This document shows positions 14,245-30,824 of a stretch of 30,825 nucleotides of DNA, in pieces. This stretch comes from a virus. How positions within the stretch are numbered: the stretch's first letter is position 1; each line of letters begins with the position of its first letter. A program made the translations under genes and the position numbers. The notes beneath the pieces are model-generated. The model searched no databases, was not told where the DNA came from, and saw nothing but the letters and a program-made list of their open reading frames with translations. The stretch is taken from positions 1 to 30,825 of the IMG/VR virus record IMGVR_UViG_3300042326_000224; one strand, written 5' to 3'.

Positions 14245-14840
14245 CAGTAGACCCGGTAGGAGCCCTGGCGCAGGAAGGTCCGGTACACGTCAGGAGAATC
14301 GAAGATCGTGTAGTCCCCAACGTCATTCTCGAACTCGTTCATGGTGGCCAGGGCGGCGATCTCGTCCCTCAGGGTGAAGGCGTGATGCTTCTCCGAGCCG
14401 ACCATGCGGTCCTGGAAGACGCGGGCAGACCGAATGGTGATGTACCGCTTGGCCGACTCCGGCATCTGGTCGAAGTCCATCAGGTAGATCTGGGTCACGC
14501 TGATGGGACCCGAGAACACGTAGGAGTTCGTCTTGCGGTTGTACAGGCGGTTCCCACGGACGACGATGTCGTACTCGTATTCCTCCCGGGGCATGTCCAC
14601 GCGGACCACGGTGTCCGGCACGTAGATGAACCCGGTGTTGCTGTCGGGAACCAGGGAAACCTTCTCGTCGGTGTTGAACTGCCAGCCGTAGGTCAGGACC
14701 TCTCGGCTGATCTCGTCCAGGATGTTCTGGGCAATCAGGGCATCGGCCCGTTGTGCCGCCAGCGAGTTGATCGGAGGTTCTCCCACCGTGGACAGCATGG
14801 TGTTGATCGCCTGGATCTTCGTGGTCTTTGACAGAGGCAT
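14244..14840 (-). CDS. Tail tubular protein A (adaptor), gp11-like
   Basis: A 198-residue protein, almost the same length as T7 gp11 (196), which joins the portal to the nozzle in the short tail. The N-terminal helix carries the family pattern AINTMLSTVGEPPINSLA, followed by LDEISREVLTYGWQFNTDE, and a late ITIRSARVFQDRMVGS helix. It is the first gene after the capsid terminator, so its transcription depends on read-through or on a promoter not recognised here. Start ATG 14840 sits behind GAGGTTCCCCC, a GAGG ribosome site. Confidence 0.95.
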   Translation of the reverse strand: MPLSKTTKIQAINTMLSTVGEPPINSLAAQRADALIAQNILDEISREVLTYGWQFNTDEKVSLVPDSNTGFIYVPDTVVRVDMPREEYEYDIVVRGNRLYNRKTNSYVFSGPISVTQIYLMDFDQMPESAKRYITIRSARVFQDRMVGSEKHHAFTLRDEIAALATMNEFENDVGDYTIFDSPDVYRTFLRQGSYRVY

Positions 14841-20586: not shown

Positions 20587-20902
20587 GCTTCAGGCTCCTC
20601 AGGGTGTTGAGATGTCTAGCACGGATGGATGAAGTAGGTGCTGCACAGGCAGCGAACAAAGCCACGATCTGCGGGTGCTTGATGATGCTGTAGCGGGATA
20701 CGTTCTTCAGGAACTGCAGCGCCGAACGCCCATACATGGTCCAGATGAACACGCCATTCTGCACGGGCCGGATCGTTCCGCCCCACTTGGCGGCCATCTC
20801 CCTCAGCACCTTTCGGTTCTTGTTCGTGACCTCGACGGTGGGGCACTTGTTCCAGCGAACGCAGCCCTCACCGTCCAGCAGTCCTGCCGCATAGGAGTTC
20901 AG
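20570..20902 (-). CDS. LAGLIDADG-type endonuclease overlapping the DNA polymerase stop
   Basis: About 110 residues in frame with one LAGLIDADG-like motif, SYAAGLLDGEGCV, then the family order VEVTNKNRKVLREMAAKWGG, a W-T-(M)-Y-G strand and RYSIIKHPQIVALF. One motif implies a homodimer, as in I-CreI. No ATG with a ribosome site leads directly into this motif. The listed start is CTG 20902, whose last two bases are the first two of the polymerase TGA (CTGA); an ATG at 20992 inside the polymerase would add 30 basic residues that look like a shadow of polymerase code. Homing endonucleases near DNA polymerase genes are common in T7-like phages. The catalytic acid is the Asp of LLDGEG. Confidence 0.72.
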   Translation of the reverse strand: MNSYAAGLLDGEGCVRWNKCPTVEVTNKNRKVLREMAAKWGGTIRPVQNGVFIWTMYGRSALQFLKNVSRYSIIKHPQIVALFAACAAPTSSIRARHLNTLRSLKHVHPH

Positions 20903-22653
20903 TGTGTTTCTGCCCAGTTGGCCCCCACGCGGAACTCGCCATCGAGGGCGCACCTGAAGGCGAACGTCTGTCCCGCTTCCTGAATGGCGCATACCAAGAT
21001 GGTACCGATACTCTCAGAGATTTCCTGGGGAGCGACGAACTGGTACTCGTCATGGATGCTTGCGACCTGGGCAACTCGGTCGTATCCCTCGAACAGGATC
21101 TTGTTCCACGCGATCACGCAGGCCTGCTTCATCACCACTGCACCAGCCGACTGCAGCAGTGTGTTCAGCGCCGCATGTTCAGACCGGGGATACAAAGGGC
21201 GTCCGTCCAGTCCCTTGAAGTAACCGTCCCGCTGCATGGCAGAGGACACGGCCTCCTTCAACTTGGAATAGGCTGGGACCTTGGCCTCGAAGTTGGCACG
21301 GGCCCGGCGTCCACGCTTGCGGTCACCTCCAAGGACGAACCCCAACTTGTCGTCTCCTGCTCCGTAGATCAGGGCGTAGATTGCTCCCTTGGCCTGGTTA
21401 CGTGCAGCCTTGTGTTCTGGGTTGGACTTGTCCTGCTGAACGTCTCCGACCAGACCGAAGGCCTTGGCGTTGGTCCAGTGGATGTCGCCTTCCAGGATCT
21501 GCTTGGCGTATTCGCCCTTGTCGTATCGACCGAGGTAGTGGGCCAGGCAGCGCAGTTCCAGCCCTGAGGCGTCCGCGCCGACCAGCATCGTTCCCTTGTC
21601 CGGGATGAACAGGCTGCGGTAAGCGGGGTCTGCAGGGACCTGGGCCATGTTCGGGTTCCGGTGGGTGCAGCGGCCCGTGATGGCACCGTTGGTGTTCACG
21701 CGGCCATGGAGCCTGCCCTTGCGGACCAACTTCAGCCATGCCTCGTCACCCTCGGCCAACTGACCAAGACGCTTCAGGACGGTCAGGTATCTGTTGAGGA
21801 TCTGGGCTTCTGGGAAGGACAGATCGGACAGCACGGCCTCGTCCACCCTGGGGCGTCCATCGGGGGTCAGTTCCTTGGGCTCCCAGCCGTACTTCTCCTT
21901 CAGTCGCTCCGCGATCTGCATCCGGCTGCCGGGGTTGAACGGCTCGACCTTGGGCTTCAGGGCCTTCCCGGTCTTCTCCGAGACGCGCTGGATGACCTTG
22001 GGAGGGAACACCTCCTGCAACTTGGCCTCGATGTCCAGCAGTTCCTTCCGCAAGTCGGCATGGAGCCGTTCAGCCGCAGCCACGTCGAAGCCGAAGCCGT
22101 GACGCTCCTGGTTGCGGATGATCTGGGCAAAGGCGTGTTCGATGTGGATGGCCGGGGCTGCATCCTTGAACGTCTTCAGGGACTGCAGGTGGTTCCACAG
22201 AGTGTTGGTGACACGGACATCCTGCAGGCAATACTCCATCAGTTCCTCGGAGTTCTTCTCGAACCCGGGAGCCTCGGACTTGCCGCAGCCCAGTCGGTGA
22301 CCCCAGGCCTTGAGCGAGTGACTGCCCACCAGTTCCTTGGGGAAGTCCTTGGTCTGGAAGTCGATCTCCCGCTGGTTGGCATTGAGCAGCCGGGCCACGA
22401 CCAAGGTGTCGATGATCCGGTTCATGGGATCGAACTTGCGGCTCAGTTTGCGGAGTGCCGGGATGTCGAACGACAGGACGTTGTGACCGACGATCACGTC
22501 CGCCTTGTTCAGGATCTCGACGCCCTCCTCAAGGCTGACGATCCGGGGTTCCCCACCGTCGATGCTGACGGCCATGCACAGGACCTGCTTCAGGTCCGAC
22601 AGTTCCAGCCAGTCCTCGATGGGATTCGTCTCGATGTCAAAGGTGACTTGCAT
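20899..22653 (-). CDS. Family A DNA polymerase with proofreading exonuclease, gp5-like
   Basis: A 584-residue replicative polymerase, shorter than T7 gp5 (704). The 3'-5' exonuclease residues are all present: DIE (Asp6, Glu8), SFDIPAL (Asp63) and YCLQDV (Tyr141, Asp145). Polymerase motif A is VGADASGLELR (Asp361), motif B is RNQAKGAIYALIYGAG (Arg418, Lys422, Tyr426, Tyr430) and motif C is ASIHDE (His534, Asp535, Glu536). The C-terminal ANWAETH resembles the T7 ending NWAICH. Tyr426 is the counterpart of T7 Tyr526. The gene starts 15 bp after dyad D, with GGGAG as ribosome site, and its stop overlaps the LAGLIDADG gene. Confidence 0.98.
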   Translation of the reverse strand: MQVTFDIETNPIEDWLELSDLKQVLCMAVSIDGGEPRIVSLEEGVEILNKADVIVGHNVLSFDIPALRKLSRKFDPMNRIIDTLVVARLLNANQREIDFQTKDFPKELVGSHSLKAWGHRLGCGKSEAPGFEKNSEELMEYCLQDVRVTNTLWNHLQSLKTFKDAAPAIHIEHAFAQIIRNQERHGFGFDVAAAERLHADLRKELLDIEAKLQEVFPPKVIQRVSEKTGKALKPKVEPFNPGSRMQIAERLKEKYGWEPKELTPDGRPRVDEAVLSDLSFPEAQILNRYLTVLKRLGQLAEGDEAWLKLVRKGRLHGRVNTNGAITGRCTHRNPNMAQVPADPAYRSLFIPDKGTMLVGADASGLELRCLAHYLGRYDKGEYAKQILEGDIHWTNAKAFGLVGDVQQDKSNPEHKAARNQAKGAIYALIYGAGDDKLGFVLGGDRKRGRRARANFEAKVPAYSKLKEAVSSAMQRDGYFKGLDGRPLYPRSEHAALNTLLQSAGAVVMKQACVIAWNKILFEGYDRVAQVASIHDEYQFVAPQEISESIGTILVCAIQEAGQTFAFRCALDGEFRVGANWAETH

Positions 22654-22668: not shown

Positions 22669-22681
22669 TCTAGTTCCTAGA
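22669..22681 (-). promoter_or_regulatory. TCTAG-N3-CTAGA dyad, site D (before DNA polymerase)
   Basis: The minus strand reads TCTAGGAACTAGA, an exact 5+5 inverted repeat around GAA. It includes the TAG stop of the HTH gene and ends 15 bp before the polymerase ATG; GGGAGAACACC follows. It is one of four copies. CTAG is otherwise very rare in this window. Confidence 0.7.
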
Positions 22682-23018
22682 TCAGGTCGTCTTTGGTCAG
22701 GCCCTGTGCCTCGAAATACACCCGGATCTGGGCCAGAGCCATGTCATGGTAACGCTTTATGGCCTGGCCGTCAAGCGGATCCTCCGGGTTCAGGAGGGTG
22801 TATCTCCGGGCCAAGGCCTCCCACGTCACCGAGTCCTCGTCCTTCACCGGGACACCACGCTGCCGCTTGGGGCGGTTGTTGTAGTCGTGCCGGATCACCG
22901 TGGACACCAGTTGGGGGCTGATCCCGTACTGCCTGGCAATGGCCACCTTCTTCATGGAGGTCTTGCCAAGGGCACGGATCTCGGCCACCTGCAGGTCAGT
23001 CAACTTTCGTTCGCGCAT
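22677..23018 (-). CDS. Helix-turn-helix DNA-binding protein
   Basis: A 113-residue protein with a single helix-turn-helix near the N-terminus: LTDLQVAEIRALG, then VAIARQYGISPQLVSTVIR (about residues 26-44), the resolvase- or transposase-like HTH form. A basic NRPKRQRG follows, and then an acidic and helical C-terminal half without a recognised domain; no HNH or GIY-YIG nuclease motif is visible. ATG 23018 with AGGA upstream is preferred to TTG 23024. It overlaps the coiled-coil gene and its stop codon forms part of dyad D before the polymerase gene, so it may regulate that site (inference). Confidence 0.75.
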   Translation of the reverse strand: MRERKLTDLQVAEIRALGKTSMKKVAIARQYGISPQLVSTVIRHDYNNRPKRQRGVPVKDEDSVTWEALARRYTLLNPEDPLDGQAIKRYHDMALAQIRVYFEAQGLTKDDLI

Positions 23019-23181
23019 GTTCAATCCTGTCCAGCCGATTCACGGCCTGTTCGAGTCTGTTGAGTGCCCGGTCAAGTTCCACGTTCCTGCGTGGGCCGGG
23101 CTTCTTCCTGCGGGCATCGATCAGGTCCCTGGAGGACTCGATGATGCTCAGGACGATCCGTTTCATGGAGTTCGTGATCAT
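22996..23181 (-). CDS. Small basic coiled-coil protein
   Basis: About 61 residues from ATG 23181, which overlaps the ThyX stop (ATGA) and so is the likeliest start; open frame continues upstream within thyX, but no ribosome site supports an earlier start. The protein is basic and helical: KRIVLSIIESSRDLIDARRKK, then VELDRALNRLEQAVNRLDRIE with Leu/Ile/Val spacing of a coiled coil. No known family. Probably forms dimers; function unknown. Confidence 0.6.
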   Translation of the reverse strand: MITNSMKRIVLSIIESSRDLIDARRKKPGPRRNVELDRALNRLEQAVNRLDRIEHARTKVD

Positions 23182-23816
23182 TGCGAATGGCGACACAAGG
23201 CGGTCCATGACGTTGGAAACTTGGTCGCACATTCGGCAGCCAGACGCAGGGCAACTTCCTTGGTTTCCTGCTGGGCTGTCGGGTGCGTCCGCTGCTGCAC
23301 GACTCGGTTGAACGCATACAGAGATCCGGTCCAGATCCATTCGGTCATCACTCCCTGGGGTAGGACAGCCCTCGCCTGCTCCGGGCACACCCCGTCTGCA
23401 AGCAGGCTGCGGTAGGTACGGACTGCCAGTTCCATGGCGTACATCAGGTCCAGCATGGCCCGCTCGTTGGTCACGGCCAGGTCGCTGCTGCCCTGCTTGA
23501 CGTTCTCTGCCGCCTTTCGCAGGTACTCAGGCTTCCACAGGACGGGATCAACCGTGACGTACCTGCGGCTGACCTCGTTCCACGACAGGCCCACCTGGTG
23601 CTTGGCCAGTTGCCGAGCCACGAAGATCGGGGCAGTGACGCGGAACTTCAGCATGACGTGGGCAAAGGGGGACCAGTGCCCGTGCTTGGCCAGGTAGTCG
23701 ATCAGGCTGGCATTCTTCTCAGTCGGATACTCCGTGGCGATCTTGTCGAACGAAACACGGGCGGCGTTCACGACAGAGTCGTCGTCGCCCATCCAGTCAA
23801 TCAGGGTCACGTTCAT
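23178..23816 (-). CDS. thyX: Flavin-dependent thymidylate synthase ThyX
   Basis: A 212-residue ThyX, which makes dTMP from dUMP with FAD and methylene-tetrahydrofolate. The signature appears at about residues 68-86 as RQLAKHQVGLSWNEVSRRY, a phage-type variant of the classical RHRxxSxNExSxRY. The upstream HWSPFAHVMLKFRV strand and the C-terminal QQRTHPTAQQETKEVALRLA segment are also typical. The enzyme would raise dTTP supply during replication. It sits among small unknown genes and is bounded by ATGA overlaps on both sides. Confidence 0.95.
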   Translation of the reverse strand: MNVTLIDWMGDDDSVVNAARVSFDKIATEYPTEKNASLIDYLAKHGHWSPFAHVMLKFRVTAPIFVARQLAKHQVGLSWNEVSRRYVTVDPVLWKPEYLRKAAENVKQGSSDLAVTNERAMLDLMYAMELAVRTYRSLLADGVCPEQARAVLPQGVMTEWIWTGSLYAFNRVVQQRTHPTAQQETKEVALRLAAECATKFPTSWTALCRHSQ

Positions 23817-23965
23817 GGTTCATTCTCCTCGTCCAGTTCGGCCAACTTGTCCAATGCGTCTTCCATCACGATCCGCTGGCACTGTCGGCACAGGTTCTCG
23901 AATGGGTCGATCTTCTTCTGACAACTGCACTCGTAACCGATGTCCTTCTTCTCTTCGTCGCTCAT
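23813..23965 (-). CDS. Four-cysteine small protein, probable zinc binder
   Basis: A 50-residue frame that starts ATG 23965 (ATGA overlap with the preceding stop) and ends in an ATGA overlap with thyX, filling the space exactly. Cysteines lie at residues 13 and 15 (YECSCQ) and 26 and 29 (LCRQCQ), a C-x-C...C-x2-C set that could hold one zinc. The C-terminus is acidic. No family was recognised. Perfect coupling on both sides and no non-coding space argue that it is real. Confidence 0.7.
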   Translation of the reverse strand: MSDEEKKDIGYECSCQKKIDPFENLCRQCQRIVMEDALDKLAELDEENEP

Positions 23966-24324
23966 GCAAGACTCCTTGCAATCATCGGGCGCACAATGGC
24001 AATACTGCGAATATCAGTTCCTTGTTTCTGATCCACGGCATTTTTGAGGGTCTGTGCGACAATGCTGCCGATGTGTTCGTACTGCTTGTTGACTCGGTAC
24101 AAGTCCTCAACGAACTCGGGTGTCATCAAAAAGGTTGTCACAACCTTGACGCTTGTAAGCATCGAAATGTCGTGCCCATGCTTTTTGGAGGTTCGTTGAT
24201 CTTGCTCAGCCTCTACTAGAACAACGATGTCACAGAGCCTTTGTCTCGCCTCGTCGCGCTCCTTCCGCAGTTGCGTGATGATTTCGATTGCTCGGTCCAG
24301 AGTCAGATCATCAAGGTCATCCAT
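23962..24324 (-). CDS. Unknown helical protein in low-GC stretch
   Basis: A 120-residue protein, helical and charged at the start (DLTLDRAIEIITQLRKERDEARQRL), with a middle MLTSVKVVTTFLMTPEFVEDLYRVNKQYE and no recognised domain. Its DNA is about 45% GC in two 60-base lines I counted, against roughly 60% in neighbouring genes, a sign of recent acquisition. The ATG has GGAGG 6 nt upstream, inside the 87-residue gene it overlaps by 8 bp. Confidence 0.68.
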   Translation of the reverse strand: MDDLDDLTLDRAIEIITQLRKERDEARQRLCDIVVLVEAEQDQRTSKKHGHDISMLTSVKVVTTFLMTPEFVEDLYRVNKQYEHIGSIVAQTLKNAVDQKQGTDIRSIAIVRPMIARSLA

Positions 24325-24580
24325 TGTGGTCCTCCAGTTCTTCCAGTTGCTTCATGGTCATGCGTTCCAGCCAGAAGGGCGTGTTAGGCCCAACGTAGGC
24401 GCAGGTCACGTTGAACGACAGGTACTCCAGCGCCTCTTCAAAGTCCATTCCATCACGTTCCATCAGAACCGTCAAGGCCTTGTCTTGGTCGTACACCGCA
24501 TGGACCTTGTTCTCATGGTCGATGATGATTCCGATGAACGCCCGCTCGAAACCATCGGCCAGCAGCAGGTCAGATGTCAT
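24317..24580 (-). CDS. Conserved phage protein of unknown function
   Basis: An 87-residue protein. The central ALTVLMERDGMDFEEALEYLSFNVTCAYVGPNTPFW is a widely seen phage pattern (MxRDGMxxEEAxEYxxFNVxxAYVGxxTPxF) in small proteins next to replication genes; it has no known biochemical activity that I can name. Upstream it overlaps the primase-helicase end by 11 bp, so it probably is expressed with it. Confidence 0.75.
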   Translation of the reverse strand: MTSDLLLADGFERAFIGIIIDHENKVHAVYDQDKALTVLMERDGMDFEEALEYLSFNVTCAYVGPNTPFWLERMTMKQLEELEDHNG

Positions 24581-26159
24581 CGTTGATCTCCATCTCGGTT
24601 TCGTGCAGCCGTCCCGTGTCCTTGTAGTACGTCAGCATCCCCGCGATCCCGGTATCCCCGGTGAAGCGGTTCTTCAGGACGCGCAGCACCAGTTCATTGG
24701 GGTTCTCGCCCTGCTGGTTGCGTTCAAGACCGATCACGGCGTCAGCCAACTGGGCAATGGAGTGGGACCCACGCAACTGGGCCAGCGAGGTCGAGGCACC
24801 TTCTTCGTGACCACGGTCCCCATCAGGACGCCGCAGGTGGGAGACCACGAACATGGCCGCCTGGGTCTCCTCTACGAGGGAACGCAGCGAGGTCATGGCG
24901 TTGTCGATCAGCCTGCGCTCGTCTCCATCCCCAAGGCCGGACACGACGATGGACAGGTGGTCCAGGAAGATGTAGTCGCACCCGCATGACTTGATCATGT
25001 ACCGGGTCCGTGCCAGCAGGTTCTCCGGGTCCACCGATCCGAAGTGGTCGAACAGCACCACCTTGGCTACCGTCGAGTCGAAGGCCTCACGCTTCTGGTC
25101 CTGCGAGATGCCACGCTCCTCCCAGAAGTACGGGGGAGTGTTGAGATGGATGCCCATGAGGTTCCGTCCGGTGCGCTTGACGCTCTCTTCGAGCATGAGC
25201 AGGCCCACCTTCTTGCCGCTGCGGATGAGGTGACACACCATTTCCCGGCACACGCTGGACTTTCCGATCCCGGTGCCGGAAGTAAGAACCACAAGTTCGC
25301 CCTTCCGAATGCCGAGCAACTTCTCGTTGAGGGCAGACCATGGGTAGGGAGTCGAATCGTTGGGATCGTCCGCGTTGACGGCGTCCCAAAGATCAGATCC
25401 CAGAACCACTCCATCAGGCCTGAACGCCTTCGCACCGTAGACCGCATCGATCACCCGCTTTCCTTCGCCCGCGACATGGGCATCGTTTGCATCCTTGAAG
25501 CCGGGAATCGTCCCGATCTTCGCCTTGCCCGGGGTCAGCAGCATGGCACACTCACGCGCCGCCTTGCGACCGGGCTCGTCGTCATCGAACATGATCACCA
25601 CGTTCTCGAACTTCTCAAGCCATTCGAGGTTGTTCTGAAACGACTTCAGGGCACCCGCAGCCCCAGTGGGAACCGACACGACAGGCCACTTGTGGCCGAA
25701 CAACTGGCTGATGGTCAGGGCATCCACCTCGCCCTCGGTCACCGTGACCATGCGGCCACCATCCCGCCACAGGTGCATCCCGTAGAGCGGCATGTTCTTG
25801 CTGTCTCCCAGCACAAGGAAGTCCTTGGAGGGGAACCGCAGTTTCTGGGCCACGACCTCGCGGTCACGGATGTACTGGGCCACCTGGACCGTCTGGCCGT
25901 TGTACTGGCCGAGGCCGTACTGCCAGAAGACGCTGGTGTCCTCCGTGATTCCCCGCTTGTTGAGGCGCGAGGGTTCGACCGAGATCAGGTCCTCGCGGAC
26001 CTTGGTGATCGGCTCGATGACCTGCCCGTCTCCGGCCTCGTAGTGCTTGCAGCCGAAGCAATACCCGTGTCCATCCGTGTACCGGGCGAGGTTGTCCTTG
26101 CTCCCGCAAGCGGGGCAGGGCTCATGCTGAACGAACTCCGATTCTTTGTGGAGTTGCAT
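24570..26159 (-). CDS. Primase-helicase, gp4-like
   Basis: A 529-residue fusion of primase and ring helicase. Start ATG 26159 is chosen because GGAGAGAG precedes it; an in-frame ATG eight codons upstream lacks a site. A zinc ribbon lies at CPAC (Cys15, Cys18) and CFGC (Cys34, Cys37). TOPRIM acids lie in VTEGEVDAL (Glu142, Glu144) and FDDDEPG (Asp192-194). The helicase Walker A is SGTGIGKSS (Lys300), Walker B is YIFLDH (Asp400), and the later H4 region QLRGSHSIAQLADAVIGLERN is intact. It ends in an acidic MEINDDI tail, which may contact the polymerase. T7 gp4 is 566 residues. Confidence 0.97.
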   Translation of the reverse strand: MQLHKESEFVQHEPCPACGSKDNLARYTDGHGYCFGCKHYEAGDGQVIEPITKVREDLISVEPSRLNKRGITEDTSVFWQYGLGQYNGQTVQVAQYIRDREVVAQKLRFPSKDFLVLGDSKNMPLYGMHLWRDGGRMVTVTEGEVDALTISQLFGHKWPVVSVPTGAAGALKSFQNNLEWLEKFENVVIMFDDDEPGRKAARECAMLLTPGKAKIGTIPGFKDANDAHVAGEGKRVIDAVYGAKAFRPDGVVLGSDLWDAVNADDPNDSTPYPWSALNEKLLGIRKGELVVLTSGTGIGKSSVCREMVCHLIRSGKKVGLLMLEESVKRTGRNLMGIHLNTPPYFWEERGISQDQKREAFDSTVAKVVLFDHFGSVDPENLLARTRYMIKSCGCDYIFLDHLSIVVSGLGDGDERRLIDNAMTSLRSLVEETQAAMFVVSHLRRPDGDRGHEEGASTSLAQLRGSHSIAQLADAVIGLERNQQGENPNELVLRVLKNRFTGDTGIAGMLTYYKDTGRLHETEMEINDDI

Positions 26160-26526
26160 TGTTCTCTCTCCATTCGATTTCAATGCGTGGCTGGTCGCTG
26201 TAGCACTTCTCTGCTTCCAGCCACATGATCTGTGTGTCGTCCTGCCACGCCCATCCGTTGAGCGAGTCGAGGATCGACTTGACGTGATTGTCGATGTCTC
26301 CTACGGGCCAGACATTCGACGGCTTCTTGGGTTTACGACAAAAGAAACGAACCTTCACCAGCAGCGGACCCGAGAGGGGGCAGCCCTTGGGCTTGTTCAT
26401 GGCACCAAGGGCCGCCTTGGCCTCTCGTCGGAATCTCTCGTAGGTCTTCCCGTAGTAAGCGAAACCCCTCCGCGAAATGCGGGGACGAGACGCCGGAACA
26501 GGATCAACCCAGAGGACGATCTTCAT
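26122..26526 (-). CDS. RusA-like Holliday junction resolvase/endonuclease
   Basis: A 134-residue protein with the RusA-type core: SRPRISRRGFAYYGKTY near the start, then GDIDNHVKSILDSLNG (about residues 76-91; the acidic residues bind metal) and WQDDTQIMWLEAEK. RusA cuts four-way junctions as a dimer. In T7 this position is filled by the unrelated endonuclease I (gp3), so this is a functional replacement used for replication intermediates and before packaging. The start overlaps the ssDNA-binding gene stop as TGATG; the end overlaps the primase-helicase start. Confidence 0.92.
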   Translation of the reverse strand: MKIVLWVDPVPASRPRISRRGFAYYGKTYERFRREAKAALGAMNKPKGCPLSGPLLVKVRFFCRKPKKPSNVWPVGDIDNHVKSILDSLNGWAWQDDTQIMWLEAEKCYSDQPRIEIEWRENNATPQRIGVRSA

Positions 26527-27134
26527 CAGAAGTCGTTGTCTTCCGATCCGGTCGCATCGTTGGCGTTGGCGCTGGCCACGAAGCCCTTGGGATCAGCCTT
26601 GAACCCGTAGGCATCGAAGTTGTCGCCGGGGACGTACTCGCGCAGTTCCACGATCTGGACCGCCTTCATGCGGAGGGAGATCCCGGCGCCGACCATGGCG
26701 GTGAAGAAGGGGACCACCTCGAAGGCGACCTTGATCTTGGAGCCAGAGCCCACGTTGGGCGGGGTCTGGATGGCCGTGCCAGCCGAGTCGAAGAGAACGG
26801 GCTTCTGCTCCCATGACTTCTCCTCGTTCCCGGCCTTGGCCTTCAACTTGAACTTGATGCGGATCATGCCCTCGTCCGTCTCCTTGATGGGCATGGCCGA
26901 CCGCTTCAACTTCTTGCCGCCGCGCTTCTCGCACTCGGACTCGTAGGCCTCATCCGCCGCCTTGTTCAGCGAAGCGATGAAGTCCTTCGAGGCCTTGTCC
27001 TTCGGGTCCAGTTCCAGATCCACGCTGTACACGCCGTCCTTGTCGAACTTGGTGTCCGGCGTGGTCAGGCGCGGGTAGATGGCCGTACCGAGGGGCGAGG
27101 TGATGCGGGCGAACTTCTTGCGGGTAGCACTCAT
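26526..27134 (-). CDS. Single-stranded DNA-binding protein, gp2.5-like
   Basis: A 202-residue protein of the T7 gp2.5 type. It starts basic (MSATRKKFARITSPLGTAIYPRL), has an OB-fold-like beta pattern (VYSVDLELDPKD, IRIKFKLKAK, KIKVAFEVVPFF) and ends with a highly acidic tail ending SEDNDF, like the gp2.5 ending in Asp/Glu-rich DEDF. That tail contacts the polymerase and helicase. The start ATG 27134 has AAAGGAG and dyad C upstream. Confidence 0.9.
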   Translation of the reverse strand: MSATRKKFARITSPLGTAIYPRLTTPDTKFDKDGVYSVDLELDPKDKASKDFIASLNKAADEAYESECEKRGGKKLKRSAMPIKETDEGMIRIKFKLKAKAGNEEKSWEQKPVLFDSAGTAIQTPPNVGSGSKIKVAFEVVPFFTAMVGAGISLRMKAVQIVELREYVPGDNFDAYGFKADPKGFVASANANDATGSEDNDF

Positions 27135-27150
27135 GTGGCGTCTCCTTTGT

Positions 27151-27165
27151 GTCTAGGTCCTAGAC
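27151..27165 (-). promoter_or_regulatory. TCTAG-N3-CTAGA dyad, site C (before ssDNA-binding protein)
   Basis: The minus strand reads GTCTAGGACCTAGAC, the longest copy with 6+6 arms. It lies directly after the RNA polymerase TGA and 16 bp before the ssDNA-binding ATG, with AAAGGAG between. The loop is GAC here and GAA in the others. Confidence 0.7.
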
Positions 27166-29559
27166 TCAGTTGAAGTAGTAGTCTGAGTCTCGGACCTTCG
27201 TGATGTCCAGAGTACCGTACTCAGGAACTTCAGGCAGTGTAACAGACCCGGGCAACATTGTCAAGGCCCCGGTTCTGAACTCATTCAGCAGGTCCCGGGT
27301 GAAGATGTCAACGGTCGCCTCGCGGACGCACGAAGCCACCTTCAGGTAATCCCCCGACAGGCACATGATCTGGTCATGCACCGACCCCAGGTGGTTGATG
27401 CCGTTGGCCGCGCACAGGTTGACCGTGTGCCCAAGCAGGCCGCCGAAGCCGTCCAGGGAGTGGACATAGTTGGCGGGGCCTCCGTTCAGGGCCTTGCGCT
27501 TGGACTGGACACCGTTCTCCAGCCGGATGCTCAGGACCTTTGCTTTCGCACCGATCCGGGTGGAGACCGTGACCACATCGTAGTTCTCGTACCTCATCCG
27601 AACAGGGAACCCGATGGGGGTCATCCAGTACGGGGTCACGTCATTGTCGATCAGGACCGCCATGACATCACGGATGAACTTCATGCCCCGCTGGGCGGAA
27701 CCCACGACATCACCGATGGATTCCCAGATGATCTTGCCCAGGTAGGCCACGGGCTTGTAGGTCTCCAGGCCGAAGGGGTTGTTCCCGGTCTTGCGGATGC
27801 GGTCTTCCAGCCACTCACGGGTGTACGAGATGCACGAATGCAACGTCAGCCCATAGGGCAGGGTCATGGTCTGCCGCTTGGTGGTGGTCCGGTCGATGCC
27901 CATCTTGAGCAGGGTCTGGGCCATCGGCTCCATTGACGACTTCAGTTTCGTGATTACGGTGTCGGCAACGAACTGGTACGGATCCGAGGGATGGTCCGAG
28001 GGCAGTACGTTGGTGGCCAGGGCCGACACGGGATCCCGCAGGAGCATCGAGTAGATCTGCAGGCCCTGCGTGGTGGCGTCCATGGCGATGGGCAGGCTGC
28101 TGACGAAGGACGATCCCTGCCGCCACATCTCATGGATCTCACGGCAGGCGGCCACGAACGCGAACGGCTCGTCTGCCTCAAGCCACACCTTGTTCGCCCA
28201 TGGGTCACGGGCCACCTGCTGGATGCTTGCCCGGTTCTCCTCGACCCACCGGACACGCTCCTTGATCGTCTTCTTGTCGAGGCCGAACTTGTTGGCCACC
28301 TGGATGTACAGGGGGAACTGGTCGGCCTCCGTCTTCAGGGGCTTGCCATCGGCGAAGCGCAGCATGGCCTTGGCATACGAGACGCCCTGGGGGTGCAGGA
28401 ACAGGGGCAGTGGGTAGCCACGACCACGGAAGTCCAGTTGGTGAGGGAACCACAGCCGTCCATGGGCAGCCATCTTGTCGGCCACGAACAGCGACTTGAG
28501 CGTCAGCAGGCGCTGGGACTCATACGATTCGTTCAGGAAGTGGATCTTGGCTGCGGCCTTGCGCCAGTCACGGCGGGCCTGCTCGTCGGTGTCGATGTTG
28601 ACGGGCTTGGTGGGCAGTTCCTCGTCGCGGCTCGGGGGCAGACCATCGACGGCCATGCCTTCCTTCCAGCACTCATGCACCAGTTCACGGATGTAGCCAT
28701 CGACCACCCATGGGGTGTTCTGCACGAAGTTGACCGCCGCATACACGCCCGATGACAGTGATGATGACAGTGATTCCTGGTACGACTTCGACCTGCTCTT
28801 GACGAGGGGCCGGGGCTTCCAGTCCAGCGATGCGTAGCCGCCCACCCAGGGGTTGTTCCACTCCAGGGGCTTCTCGATCATGGGCAGGAACATCGGCTCA
28901 AGGGATTCGTGGTATTCGTGGCATCCCTTGATCCACTCGCGGATGTCCTTGGTCGGCTGGATCACGCAGTAGCGGCGGCCCCGGGCATTCAACTTGGTGA
29001 TGATCTCGATGACCCCGGTGCGCTCGGCCAGCATCTCCACCAACAGCAGGCCCACGGCCAGCGCCTCGGCCTTGGCCCAACGCTTGGTGACCAGGTCAAC
29101 GGCCTTGGCTGCGTCACGGGCGAACCTGCGCTTGAACTTCTGCCCCACCTTCTTGAACGTCTTCTTCTGGACGGTTCGGAGAAAGTCGGGCTGCTCACGG
29201 GCCAGTTCATCGAGCAGGATCTCGTCCTCGATGGCACGGCCCACGGCGATGCAGGTCCCGGTCAGCATCCGTTCCTGGGACAGGGCATCGATGACCACCT
29301 TGGCCGCGATGACGGCTGCCTTCTCCGAGGCGATCTGCGACAGCAGGGGGAAGCAGCGATGCCTACGGCCAGGTCCGTTCTCGGCACGTGCCATCCACAG
29401 GGCCAGCCCCTTGGCCAGTTCCGTGGTGCATCGGTTCAGCATCATCCGCCCGGGGATGGTGTTGCTCTCCGAGGCGATCTCATGGGCCTTGGCCTTGCGG
29501 TTCTGGTACCGCTGCTTGCCCAGTTCCACCATTTCCTTGTTGAGTTTGTCCTGCCGCAT
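27166..29559 (-). CDS. Single-subunit DNA-dependent RNA polymerase, gp1-like
   Basis: A 797-residue T7-type RNA polymerase (T7: 883). Catalytic elements: MDATTQGLQ with Asp494 (T7 Asp537), TTKRQTMTLPYG with Lys561 and Tyr569 (T7 Lys631, Tyr639, the same 8-residue spacing) and GSVHDQI with Asp729 (T7 Asp812). The C-terminus SDYYFN parallels the T7 foot ending in DFAFA. It makes the phage a self-directed transcription system, recognising promoters of its own type. Dyad B is 10 bp upstream of the start, and an intrinsic terminator separates it from the early genes. It is the third large gene to be transcribed, not late as in phiKMV-like phages. Confidence 0.98.
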   Translation of the reverse strand: MRQDKLNKEMVELGKQRYQNRKAKAHEIASESNTIPGRMMLNRCTTELAKGLALWMARAENGPGRRHRCFPLLSQIASEKAAVIAAKVVIDALSQERMLTGTCIAVGRAIEDEILLDELAREQPDFLRTVQKKTFKKVGQKFKRRFARDAAKAVDLVTKRWAKAEALAVGLLLVEMLAERTGVIEIITKLNARGRRYCVIQPTKDIREWIKGCHEYHESLEPMFLPMIEKPLEWNNPWVGGYASLDWKPRPLVKSRSKSYQESLSSSLSSGVYAAVNFVQNTPWVVDGYIRELVHECWKEGMAVDGLPPSRDEELPTKPVNIDTDEQARRDWRKAAAKIHFLNESYESQRLLTLKSLFVADKMAAHGRLWFPHQLDFRGRGYPLPLFLHPQGVSYAKAMLRFADGKPLKTEADQFPLYIQVANKFGLDKKTIKERVRWVEENRASIQQVARDPWANKVWLEADEPFAFVAACREIHEMWRQGSSFVSSLPIAMDATTQGLQIYSMLLRDPVSALATNVLPSDHPSDPYQFVADTVITKLKSSMEPMAQTLLKMGIDRTTTKRQTMTLPYGLTLHSCISYTREWLEDRIRKTGNNPFGLETYKPVAYLGKIIWESIGDVVGSAQRGMKFIRDVMAVLIDNDVTPYWMTPIGFPVRMRYENYDVVTVSTRIGAKAKVLSIRLENGVQSKRKALNGGPANYVHSLDGFGGLLGHTVNLCAANGINHLGSVHDQIMCLSGDYLKVASCVREATVDIFTRDLLNEFRTGALTMLPGSVTLPEVPEYGTLDITKVRDSDYYFN

Positions 29560-29569
29560 GGGTCTCCCT

Positions 29570-29582
29570 TCTAGTTCCTAGA
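29570..29582 (-). promoter_or_regulatory. TCTAG-N3-CTAGA dyad, site B (before RNA polymerase)
   Basis: The minus strand reads TCTAGGAACTAGA, then AGGGAGACCC before the ATG. It lies immediately downstream of a candidate extended -10 box, i.e. over the expected transcription start, as an operator would. Confidence 0.7.
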
Positions 29583-29590
29583 CTGTACCA
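29582..29590 (-). promoter_or_regulatory. Candidate extended -10 promoter before RNA polymerase gene
   Basis: TGGTACAGT on the minus strand (TGn plus TACAGT, 4 of 6 of TATAAT) after the terminator T run. No good -35 is seen. The preceding TTATTTGTG also occurs in the strong early promoter. A weak promoter would explain how the gene is read despite the terminator. Confidence 0.35.
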
Positions 29591-29596
29591 CATACA

Positions 29597-29635
29597 CAAA
29601 TAAAAACCCCCCGTATTCACTTGGAATACGAGGGG
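29597..29635 (-). terminator. Intrinsic terminator between early genes and RNA polymerase
   Basis: On the minus strand CCCCTCGTATTC pairs with GAATACGGGGGG around a CAAGT loop (12 bp, one G-U pair), followed by TTTTTATTT. It is 42 bp after the DUF932-like stop. It should stop most host polymerase transcripts from the early promoter before the phage RNA polymerase gene. Confidence 0.92.
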
Positions 29636-29677
29636 CAGGGAGAGGAGAACACCGCGAGTGGCGGCTCTCCCAAGATA

Positions 29678-30394
29678 TCACGCCAGTGCGTAGAACTGGT
29701 CGAGGTTGCGGTCGAACTCGATCACGGCACGTGGACGGTCCACGGGGTTGGCTTCCTTGACGAGGTGGGTGAACGCAGCCTGCAGGTTCCACAGGCACAG
29801 GTACTCCGTCTGGTAGTCGAAGGACGGAGACTTGGACTCCTCGTAGAAGTCCAGGATCTTCGACTTGTTCAGGACGCCACGCTGGGCCAGTTGCAGCGCA
29901 AACTGAGCCAGTTCGGTGCTGCCCGTGTACTGGGTCTTCAGGCGATCCTGACGCTCGGTGTACTGGCGGGACTGTGCGACGAACGACTTGACCGCGTTGT
30001 CGATCATGACCGGGAGCCGATCCCACACGTTGGTTGTGTGCTTGGTCCGCAGGATGTGTTCGGCCATGATCAGGCCGTTGGTGCAGACTCCGACCGTCTT
30101 GCCAAACATGACACGGGCAGCGATGGTCATGTCGTAGGAGTTCATCACGGCAAACTCCCACGTCTCGCCGGGGGAATCGGGCAGGTCGGGCGAGGTGATG
30201 ACGGCCTTGGACACGAACACGGGCCGCTTGCGGTGGACCTGATGGTGGTCGCTGACGACCCGGAGTCCGGCGCTCTCGAACTGCCCGCACACCGTGTTCC
30301 ACAGGCGTTCCTGGGACACGGGGCAGTAGGTGCGGGTGGCGGCGGGGACGGGGAAGGACGAGAGGCGGGTGATGTCGGTGTAGGTGCGGGACAT
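29678..30394 (-). CDS. DUF932-like early protein
   Basis: A 238-residue protein. ATG 30394 with AGGAG upstream is preferred to an earlier in-frame start (30439), which lies within the preceding gene. The centre matches the DUF932 (phage/plasmid-like) pattern: WEFAVMNSYDMTIAARVMFG, VGVCTNGLIMAEHIL and KHTTNVWDRLP, i.e. N-S-x-D, V-C-x-N-G-L and H-T. The family is common in phages and plasmids; no activity is established. As a gene transcribed by host RNA polymerase in the first minutes it may act on the host, but that is inference. It ends just before the terminator. Confidence 0.78.
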   Translation of the reverse strand: MSRTYTDITRLSSFPVPAATRTYCPVSQERLWNTVCGQFESAGLRVVSDHHQVHRKRPVFVSKAVITSPDLPDSPGETWEFAVMNSYDMTIAARVMFGKTVGVCTNGLIMAEHILRTKHTTNVWDRLPVMIDNAVKSFVAQSRQYTERQDRLKTQYTGSTELAQFALQLAQRGVLNKSKILDFYEESKSPSFDYQTEYLCLWNLQAAFTHLVKEANPVDRPRAVIEFDRNLDQFYALA

Positions 30395-30395
30395 T

Positions 30396-30560
30396 TCAGT
30401 TCTCCTGAGTCTTGTTGAGGGTGTCAACGATGGAAGCAAGGCGGGTCAGTTCTTCCCGGCAGACTTGCACGGTGGTGGGGCTGGGGTCGGACGTGAGCAG
30501 GTGGATGATGATCTCCACTGCGGTCGTCCACGTCATGTTCATCTGGATCGTCTCTGGCAT
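30396..30560 (-). CDS. Small early protein, 54 residues
   Basis: Starts ATG 30560 with CGGAGAACACC upstream and stops at TGA 30396-30398, 1 bp before the DUF932-like ATG. It is helical and acidic: MPETIQMNMTWTTAVEIIIH, a short proline turn SDPSPTT, and CREELTRLASIVDTLNK. No family recognised. The fit of ribosome site, length and close spacing supports it as a real gene. Confidence 0.62.
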   Translation of the reverse strand: MPETIQMNMTWTTAVEIIIHLLTSDPSPTTVQVCREELTRLASIVDTLNKTQEN

Positions 30561-30573
30561 CGGTGTTCTCCGT

Positions 30574-30586
30574 TCTAGGAACTAGA
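30574..30586 (-). promoter_or_regulatory. TCTAG-N3-CTAGA dyad, site A (early region)
   Basis: The minus strand reads TCTAGTTCCTAGA (the same site in reverse orientation: TTC rather than GAA). It covers the last codons and the TAG stop of the 71-residue gene and lies 13 bp before the next ATG, followed by CGGAGAACACC, nearly identical to the sequence after site D. Confidence 0.68.
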
Positions 30587-30790
30587 CTTGCGGCGGGCCT
30601 TGGGCTTTGGTGGATGCCCGAGGCAGTGATTGATGAAGATCCACTCTCCATCCGTGAGCCACGACTTGTGGTGATCGACACGCCAGACCACCAAAGACGC
30701 GAAGTTGTACGCAGCCTCCGTCTGACCTGACTCGGCCAGCCTGAGCGTCTGCAGGATCGATTCCGTGATCAGGAAGCGGCTGTTCTCCAT
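30575..30790 (-). CDS. First early gene, unknown 71-residue protein
   Basis: The first gene after the sigma-70 promoter. It begins MENSRFLITESILQTLRLAE, has VVWRVDHHKSWLTDGEWIFINHCLG (aromatic and His-rich) and ends basic, PKPKARRKSSS, overlapping dyad A. No domain recognised. No ribosome site is present; the ATG lies exactly where the transcript is expected to begin (7 nt after the -10), so it may be translated leaderless. The frame is intact and a promoter points at it, so it is probably coding. Confidence 0.65.
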   Translation of the reverse strand: MENSRFLITESILQTLRLAESGQTEAAYNFASLVVWRVDHHKSWLTDGEWIFINHCLGHPPKPKARRKSSS

Positions 30791-30796
30791 GAGTGA

Positions 30797-30824
30797 ATAT
30801 TACCACAAATAACAATCCTGTCAA
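30797..30824 (-). promoter_or_regulatory. Strong sigma-70 early promoter
   Basis: On the minus strand TTGACA (30824-30819, perfect -35), 16 bp, then TAATAT (30802-30797), preceded by TGG (extended -10). The predicted start is about base 30790. It points into the early block and should be used by host RNA polymerase. Confidence 0.9.

Follow-up and report, generated by a model that had tools for sequence, protein, structure and literature searches.

Repeated dyads before early and replication genes of uncultured T7-like phages are candidate operators of a phage-encoded repressor

Which factor reads a short palindrome that recurs before one gene after another of a virus, and what would it do there? 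We analyzed a 30.8-kb viral fragment (30,825 nucleotides; IMG/VR record IMGVR_UViG_3300042326_000224), referred to below as the window, in which a preliminary description had noticed four copies of a TCTAG-N3-CTAGA dyad, each before an early or replication gene, and had considered operators for a phage repressor or activator, cores of promoters for the phage RNA polymerase (RNAP), and messenger RNA (mRNA) hairpins. Comparison with related phages indicates that the dyads are probably operators of a homodimeric repressor made by the phage, for which the first early gene (E1) is the most likely source; this protein would block both initiation and elongation of transcription with immunity-like specificity.

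Dyads in the window

The exact motif TCTAGNNNCTAGA was identified in four copies in the window, at 22669-22681, 27152-27164, 29570-29582, and 30574-30586, with all genes on the minus strand. The positions agree with those first described, including a perfect 15-bp extension of the second copy, as does the placement 10 to 17 nt before start codons. The copy at 22669-22681 (minus strand; TCTAGGAACTAGA on the coding strand) lies 15 nt before the ATG (22653) of a family A DNA polymerase gene (DNAP; 20899-22653, minus strand), and its first CTAG provides the TAG stop of an upstream helix-turn-helix (HTH) gene. The extended copy GTCTAGGACCTAGAC (27151-27165, minus strand) follows the RNAP stop codon directly and lies 17 nt before the ATG (27134) of the gene for a gp2.5-like single-stranded DNA-binding protein (SSB; 26526-27134, minus strand; PHROG 112/PF21265). 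The third, again TCTAGGAACTAGA (29570-29582, minus strand), lies 10 nt before the ATG (29559) of the T7-like single-subunit RNAP gene (797 aa; 27166-29559, minus strand; PF00940/PF14700) and overlaps the last base of a predicted -10 box. The fourth, TCTAGTTCCTAGA (30574-30586, minus strand), has its spacer in the opposite orientation and stands 13 nt before the ATG (30560) of a 54-aa open reading frame (ORF). The loops had also been described correctly, with coding-strand spacers GAA (DNAP), GAC (SSB), GAA (RNAP), and TTC (54-aa ORF). DNAP, SSB, and RNAP are the candidate controlled genes among these.

No exact copy of the dyad arose in 300 dinucleotide-preserving shuffles of the window, and a single 5-bp arm with four copies was never obtained in 200 shuffles. 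The reported scarcity of CTAG was borne out, with 12 occurrences in the window vs 37 expected and 8 of the 12 within dyads, and the morphogenesis block holds no dyad. The "half site" reported before the capsid gene (16032) is instead a TAGGAA ribosome-site-like stretch, of which relatives keep TAGGA without a dyad; the resemblance is probably a coincidence.

Conservation among related phages

Relatives were gathered by searching with RNAP and SSB, which yielded approximately 45 contigs of one uncultured T7-like clade. One of them, L017, overlaps the window end over 2,373 bp with 2 mismatches and represents the same phage; it extends the window approximately 7 kb upstream and adds eight dyads (ten in L017, two of them shared), so that this phage has at least 12 dyads before early and replication genes. 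Across genomes, 10 to 15 sites were identified per genome, nearly uniform within each, compared with a maximum of 2 to 3 after shuffling: 11 copies of TCTAGTCACTAGA in G007, 15 of TCTAGGATCCTAGA in G008, 12 of TCTAGAGTTCTAGA in G009, 14 sites in G010, of which 11 are exact TCTAGACCCTAGA, 11 copies of TCTAAGNCTTAGA in G003, and 10 of TATAGASTCTATA in L010. Most sites stand directly before gene starts, in short intergenic gaps, and nearly all at early or replication genes.

A dyad is present within approximately 55 bp before SSB in every contig that has an SSB at least 60% identical and the start region present, with one arm degenerate in L007, L019, L025, L026, and L032-L034. The RNAP gene is likewise preceded by a dyad in every such contig where the region is present, and the DNAP gene in most relatives, not all. 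The more divergent L014 (SSB 56%, RNAP 61%) also carries the dyad; none was found in L066-L069 (SSB 54-58%) or in contigs further removed. When 2.9 million viral contigs were scanned for TCTAGGAACTAGA with a ribosome-site-like GGAGA after it, ten contigs were returned, all from this clade. The motif is thus neither absent from close relatives nor present at many random places, either of which had been named as grounds for discarding the idea, and the same gene starts carry dyads.

A near-DNA search of cultured phages gave no match. The nearest cultured phages, namely Pelagibacter phages, Roseobacter CRP phages, and LUZ100, are distant (RNAP 32-36%, DNAP 43-45%), and no TCTAGN3-4CTAGA, nor any repeated dyad clearly exceeding the shuffle level, was found in LUZ100, CRP-113, or HTVC031P. 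In the open-access literature we found no paper on such sites in Autographiviridae, which does not prove that none exists. Separately, the cultured freshwater T7-like Limnohabitans phage YIMV22061 (L139) has TCTCG-N4-CGAGA dyads near 14771, 14324, and 7888, three in apparently non-coding early stretches and two with common flanks, and these may be a related kind of site.

Concerted change of the sites

The dyad sequence varies between genomes, even between phages 95-99% identical in RNAP, SSB, and helicase. Different phages are marked by different spacers (GAA, ACT, CGA, TCA, and ACC as N3; GATC and AGTT as N4), and the half-sites change in step, from TCTAG/CTAGA to TATAG/CTATA (L010), TCTAA/TTAGA (G003/L011, L018, L049, and L053), and TCCAA/TTGGA (L014). 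In many genomes, the asymmetric spacer at SSB is the exact reverse complement of that at RNAP or DNAP (CGA/TCG, ACT/AGT, GAA/TTC, AGTT/AACT); dyad orientation is uniform in G007 and mixed in L010, G003, and G010. Because the spacer is reversed between sites of one genome, the element appears to be read as double-stranded DNA by a symmetric protein, and because the change is concerted genome-wide, where a structure-only hairpin would drift site by site, a single sequence-specific factor would read all sites. Judged from these sequence comparisons, the dyads serve a symmetric DNA-binding protein as operators and are not mRNA hairpins or phage-RNAP promoters.

An mRNA 5' hairpin that stabilizes or processes the transcript or hides the ribosome site is very improbable, even though the arms covary, the dyad lies directly upstream of the ribosome site at many genes, and the SSB hairpin reaches -6.2 kcal/mol. 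Besides the reversed loop and the genome-wide concert of sequence and arms, asymmetric arms break the pairing at the L007, L025, and L032 SSB sites, some dyads, RNAP dyads among them, sit against the start codon and leave no room for a ribosome site, and the stems (-2.6 to -6.2 kcal/mol) are weak elsewhere than at SSB. We give least credence of all to the dyads as cores of promoters for the phage's own single-subunit RNAP. Such a polymerase is encoded and the sites precede genes, but L010 and G003 have 99% identical RNAPs and entirely different dyads; moreover, palindromic sites give no direction, the window's late block has no dyads, host-type -10 boxes adjoin the RNAP dyads, and transcripts begun downstream of the dyad would lose the ribosome site. 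The phage RNAP was also rejected as the reader in general, with RNAPs 98-99% identical accompanying different dyads (Mantel r 0.05). Of the earlier interpretation, the operator option therefore fits, and the promoter-core and hairpin options do not, nor does the HTH protein as binder (see below).

In phages of the ACT type, we also identified a dyad or near-dyad, GLDSRPLYPRSEH, inside the DNAP coding sequence at the same place in each (G001 12373, G011 2362, and G012 32678 in the oriented records); it is perhaps an intragenic operator.

A candidate reader of the dyads

The HTH protein encoded upstream of DNAP (115 aa; 22677-23024, minus strand) had been proposed for binding tests, and we discarded it as the specificity factor. 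Its recognition-helix region, (V/I)SPQ(L/S)(I/V)S, is nearly invariant clade-wide, across phages with different dyads; the protein is kept in phages with no dyad, and its distance does not follow that of the motif. It has weak PHROG matches to repressor, HNH, and transposase families.

E1, the first early gene, lies outside the window (L017:3070-3744, 224 aa; about 220 aa generally) and is the large early gene that loses similarity in two sister pairs exactly where the motif changes. G007 and G008 are 98% identical in RNAP, 95% in SSB, and 96% in DNAP, with E1 at 36% and operators TCTAGTCACTAGA vs TCTAGGATCCTAGA. L010 and G003 are 99% identical in RNAP and SSB and 99.8-100% in helicase; their E1 proteins are not alignable by BLAST (29% in a forced alignment), and their operators are TATAGAGTCTATA vs TCTAAGTCTTAGA. 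A small, disordered-looking late-block ORF also diverges in both pairs and seems ill suited to reading DNA specifically. Conversely, E1 homologues 81-100% identical share an operator class (L114-L117, L120, L121, L123, and L124, with L125 intermediate), and E1 distance correlates with motif distance across 13 phages (Mantel r 0.38, p 0.001). The site sequence is phage-specific and covaries with E1, not with RNAP, SSB, or HTH. All 10 dyad phages with an early region sufficiently complete for testing carry E1, which was not found in G013, a full-length 40.9-kb relative without repeated dyads. On these comparisons, E1 is most likely the operators' reader.

Reading by a host DNA-binding protein, a repressor or nucleoid protein whose differences between hosts would produce differing sites, is improbable. 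Hosts may differ between near-identical phages, and no DNA-binding family can be assigned to E1, which would suit this explanation; against it, the motif follows E1 identity, E1 similarity is lost in both near-identical pairs, G013 lacks E1 as well as dyads, and several dyad types occur within one metagenome.

The AlphaFold model of E1 (from L030) is confident and all-helical (mean pLDDT 88), with a predicted short HTH-type helix pair (66-76, 81-97); a long helical hairpin at the C terminus could serve for dimerization. No E1 was found in cultured phages, and plasmids gave one insignificant hit. A PDB sequence hit, 7bqq "Gogy" (E 2e-4 to 6e-4), covers an alanine/glutamate-rich helical stretch and was judged compositional. 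We also weighed silencing of the ParB/KorB type, in which E1 would be a partition-type clamp that loads at the dyads, spreads, and silences distant genes, perhaps also serving extrachromosomal maintenance. KorB of RK2 works at 12 sites with a palindromic core (PMC11790492), E1 resembles the ParB HTH region by eye, and spreading would explain promoter-free sites, but hidden Markov model searches (Pfam, NCBIfam) and PDB Foldseek gave no ParB/KorB match and no ParA (AAA_31, PF13614) was found in 10 records. Membership of E1 in this family, suggested by eye, was therefore dropped, and we regard the mechanism as having a low probability, similar to that of a host reader.

Promoters and proposed mechanism

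A sigma70-type promoter (typically TTGACA-N16-18-TAnnnT) lies approximately 110 nt before E1, scoring at least 9/12 in 9 of 12 cases, and E1 should consequently be immediate early. In L017, one dyad is near the E1 promoter and another directly after E1. Between E1 and the next early gene, L017:3830-4190 is an AT-richer non-coding stretch with the repeats CAGGTGTAATAC and ACCTGTGGATTACCTAAAGGTATACC and a sigma70-like promoter, TTGACA-N16-TAGGAT; it is a possible origin or regulatory hub.

At the RNAP gene of the window, a terminator-like hairpin with a T-run is predicted at 29601-29635 (minus strand), between a DUF932 gene and RNAP, and RNAP therefore probably needs its own promoter. A predicted extended -10 element for transcription of RNAP by the host polymerase, TGGTACAGT (29582-29590, minus strand), would place the start within the RNAP dyad. 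Among 20 distinct relatives, 11 have a -10 box whose end lies 1-6 bp before the RNAP dyad, and several others have a dyad overlapping the -35 or -10 region; L067, which has no dyad, keeps the promoter box TATACT at RNAP without an operator. The RNAP dyad is thus positioned where a repressor would belong. The same -10 score was reached at 9 of 25 SSB sites and 1 of 20 DNAP sites, with 21% at random, which gives little sign of promoters there. Because the sites are in short gaps before the next gene, a bound protein could act at most of them only on elongating polymerase.

Starting from the sites, their placement, their double-strand reading, their concerted change, and their covariation with E1, all drawn from sequence, we infer binding, repression, and an immunity role for E1 as follows. 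E1 would be produced at once from a strong host-type (sigma70) promoter and, as a putative homodimer, would then bind the approximately 12 dyads. Bound to the RNAP dyad, which lies against or partly within a sigma70 promoter, it would prevent initiation, and in the short gaps before start codons at the other sites it would stop elongating polymerase as a roadblock. Early and replication genes, phage RNAP included, would be silenced, and each E1 would shut down phages of its own type and not those of another. Such a system would behave like immunity specificity, because E1 and the operators change together between near-identical phages.

An activator or timing regulator without an immunity function, which would turn on early and middle genes or mark origins, is an unlikely alternative to repression by E1, although it has the most to recommend it among those we weighed: nearly all sites are at early and replication genes, the searches for lysogeny genes were negative, and at some E1 loci the first dyad precedes the promoter, a position available to an activator. 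However, the place of the dyad relative to the -10 box ranges from the -35 region to the start point, which suits a steric block, most sites have no promoter, and pure timing gives no reason for a dozen sites to change in concert between 99%-identical phages.

Possible immunity groups, lysogeny, and points against a repressor

Different operator types were identified in one metagenome, with L010 and L015 in 3300042691 and L006 and L036 in 3300046007; contig names indicate further such pairs (L012/L035, L014/L121, and L050/L115). These co-occurring types, and sister phages whose operator/E1 pairs differ, resemble distinct immunity groups. A host hint only comes from L098 (JAIXOQ010000009.1), a relative (primase-helicase 87%) that sits in a proteobacterial metagenome-assembled genome. 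Searches of 10-11 records for integrase, serine recombinase, and ParA (PF00589, PF00239, PF13614) were negative, and no HTH_3 repressor was found in the search for one.

Several observations weigh against a repressor network run by E1. Given these negative searches, a lysogenic state is not evident. Most sites have no adjoining promoter, which leaves roadblock action a guess. N3 and N4 spacers both occur, sometimes in one genome (G002), and a rigid dimer is not readily compatible with this. The early-gene rule is not universal: in G007 (6458) and G008 (13653), TCTAGGATCCTAGA immediately precedes the start codon of a late gene whose product resembles tail tubular protein A, although the early sites of G007 differ (the gene sequence was read in G008, and the GATC dyad is also present in G007). 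The correlation of E1 with the motif is weak when restricted to the ten most diverse genomes (Mantel r 0.30, p 0.08), though it remains the highest of nine genes tested. E1 has no family match in Pfam, PHROGs, NCBIfam, or PDB sequences and no significant Foldseek match to solved folds. The dyads could also be read by an unseen second factor, either a protein of the host or one encoded by a different early gene that varies.

Protection may take the form of superinfection exclusion or a carrier state, or may reflect lysogeny achieved in an unrecognised way. More tentatively, with rather more doubt than confidence, we suggest that E1 represents a new family of immediate-early repressors acting at 10-15 palindromic stoperators, a new form of immunity in T7-type phages without recognised lysogeny genes, in which specificity is renewed wholesale between sister phages and the switch serves superinfection exclusion or a carrier state. 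T7-like phages are the textbook lytic phages, and silencing through operators by a phage's own switch protein is unexpected in T7-type viruses lacking lysogeny genes; a self-specific repressor network, if true, would mean that competition of the immunity type shapes them too, here in a large uncultured clade in which no integrase was found. Sister phages with swapped operators and E1 also offer a ready series for asking how specificity shifts jointly in a repressor and its dozen operators, an unsolved problem familiar chiefly from lambdoid and Cluster A phages, and E1 is a candidate new DNA-binding fold.

Other features of the window

The assignment to T7-like phages (Autographiviridae) follows from the single-subunit RNAP (PF00940/PF14700) and a T7-like gene order comprising the gp2.5-like SSB, a RusA-like resolvase, family A DNAP, exonuclease, portal/connector, capsid, and tail proteins. 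The RusA-like Holliday junction resolvase (26122-26526) occupies the place where T7-like phages usually have endonuclease I (gp3). A sigma70-like promoter, TTGACA-N16-TAATAT (30797-30824, minus strand), ends 6 bp before the ATG of a 71-aa ORF (30575-30790), and the early genes appear to be served by host-type promoters. In several relatives, a -10 box likewise lies 6-7 bp before the RNAP ATG; boxes so near to ATGs, as at 30788-30824 of the window, suggest that early transcripts are leaderless.

Comparison with known systems

Cluster A mycobacteriophages (L5, Bxb1) carry many 13-bp stoperators, a few of them at promoters and most in short intergenic gaps; the 20-30 sites are asymmetric, bound by a monomer, and strictly oriented with transcription, and the phages are temperate, with actinobacterial hosts and an integrase or parA (PMC6550527, PMC9283540). 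The phages described here likewise have many near-identical sites of repressor size genome-wide, mostly in short gaps, and their site sequence varies with the phage's own putative repressor as it does between separate immunity groups of Cluster A. In contrast, their 10-15 sites are palindromic and of mixed orientation in several genomes, the phages are T7-like with no integrase or partition genes found, and E1 is unrelated to the Cluster A repressors and belongs to no known family.

The KorB operators (OB) of plasmid RK2 offer a second parallel, with approximately 12 palindromic sites per replicon, some near promoters and some far, and one silencer; KorB, however, belongs to the ParB proteins, uses CTP, and works with ParA (PMC11790492); neither such a protein nor a ParA partner was found here. 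The C1 repressor of phage P1 similarly combines one repressor with many dispersed operators, of which the P1 record annotation shows one. P1 operators are asymmetric 17-mers, and P1 is a temperate plasmid prophage. The temperate T7-like phages LUZ100 and Roseobacter CRP-113, which are among the nearest cultured relatives (DNAP 44-45%, RNAP 32-33%), also have a regulator gene upstream of RNAP, but theirs is of the MarR family and accompanied by a tyrosine integrase, with no repeated dyad and no E1 (PMC10134795). By analogy, the sites may work by stoperator logic, with Cluster A stoperators and KorB operators as their closest analogues.

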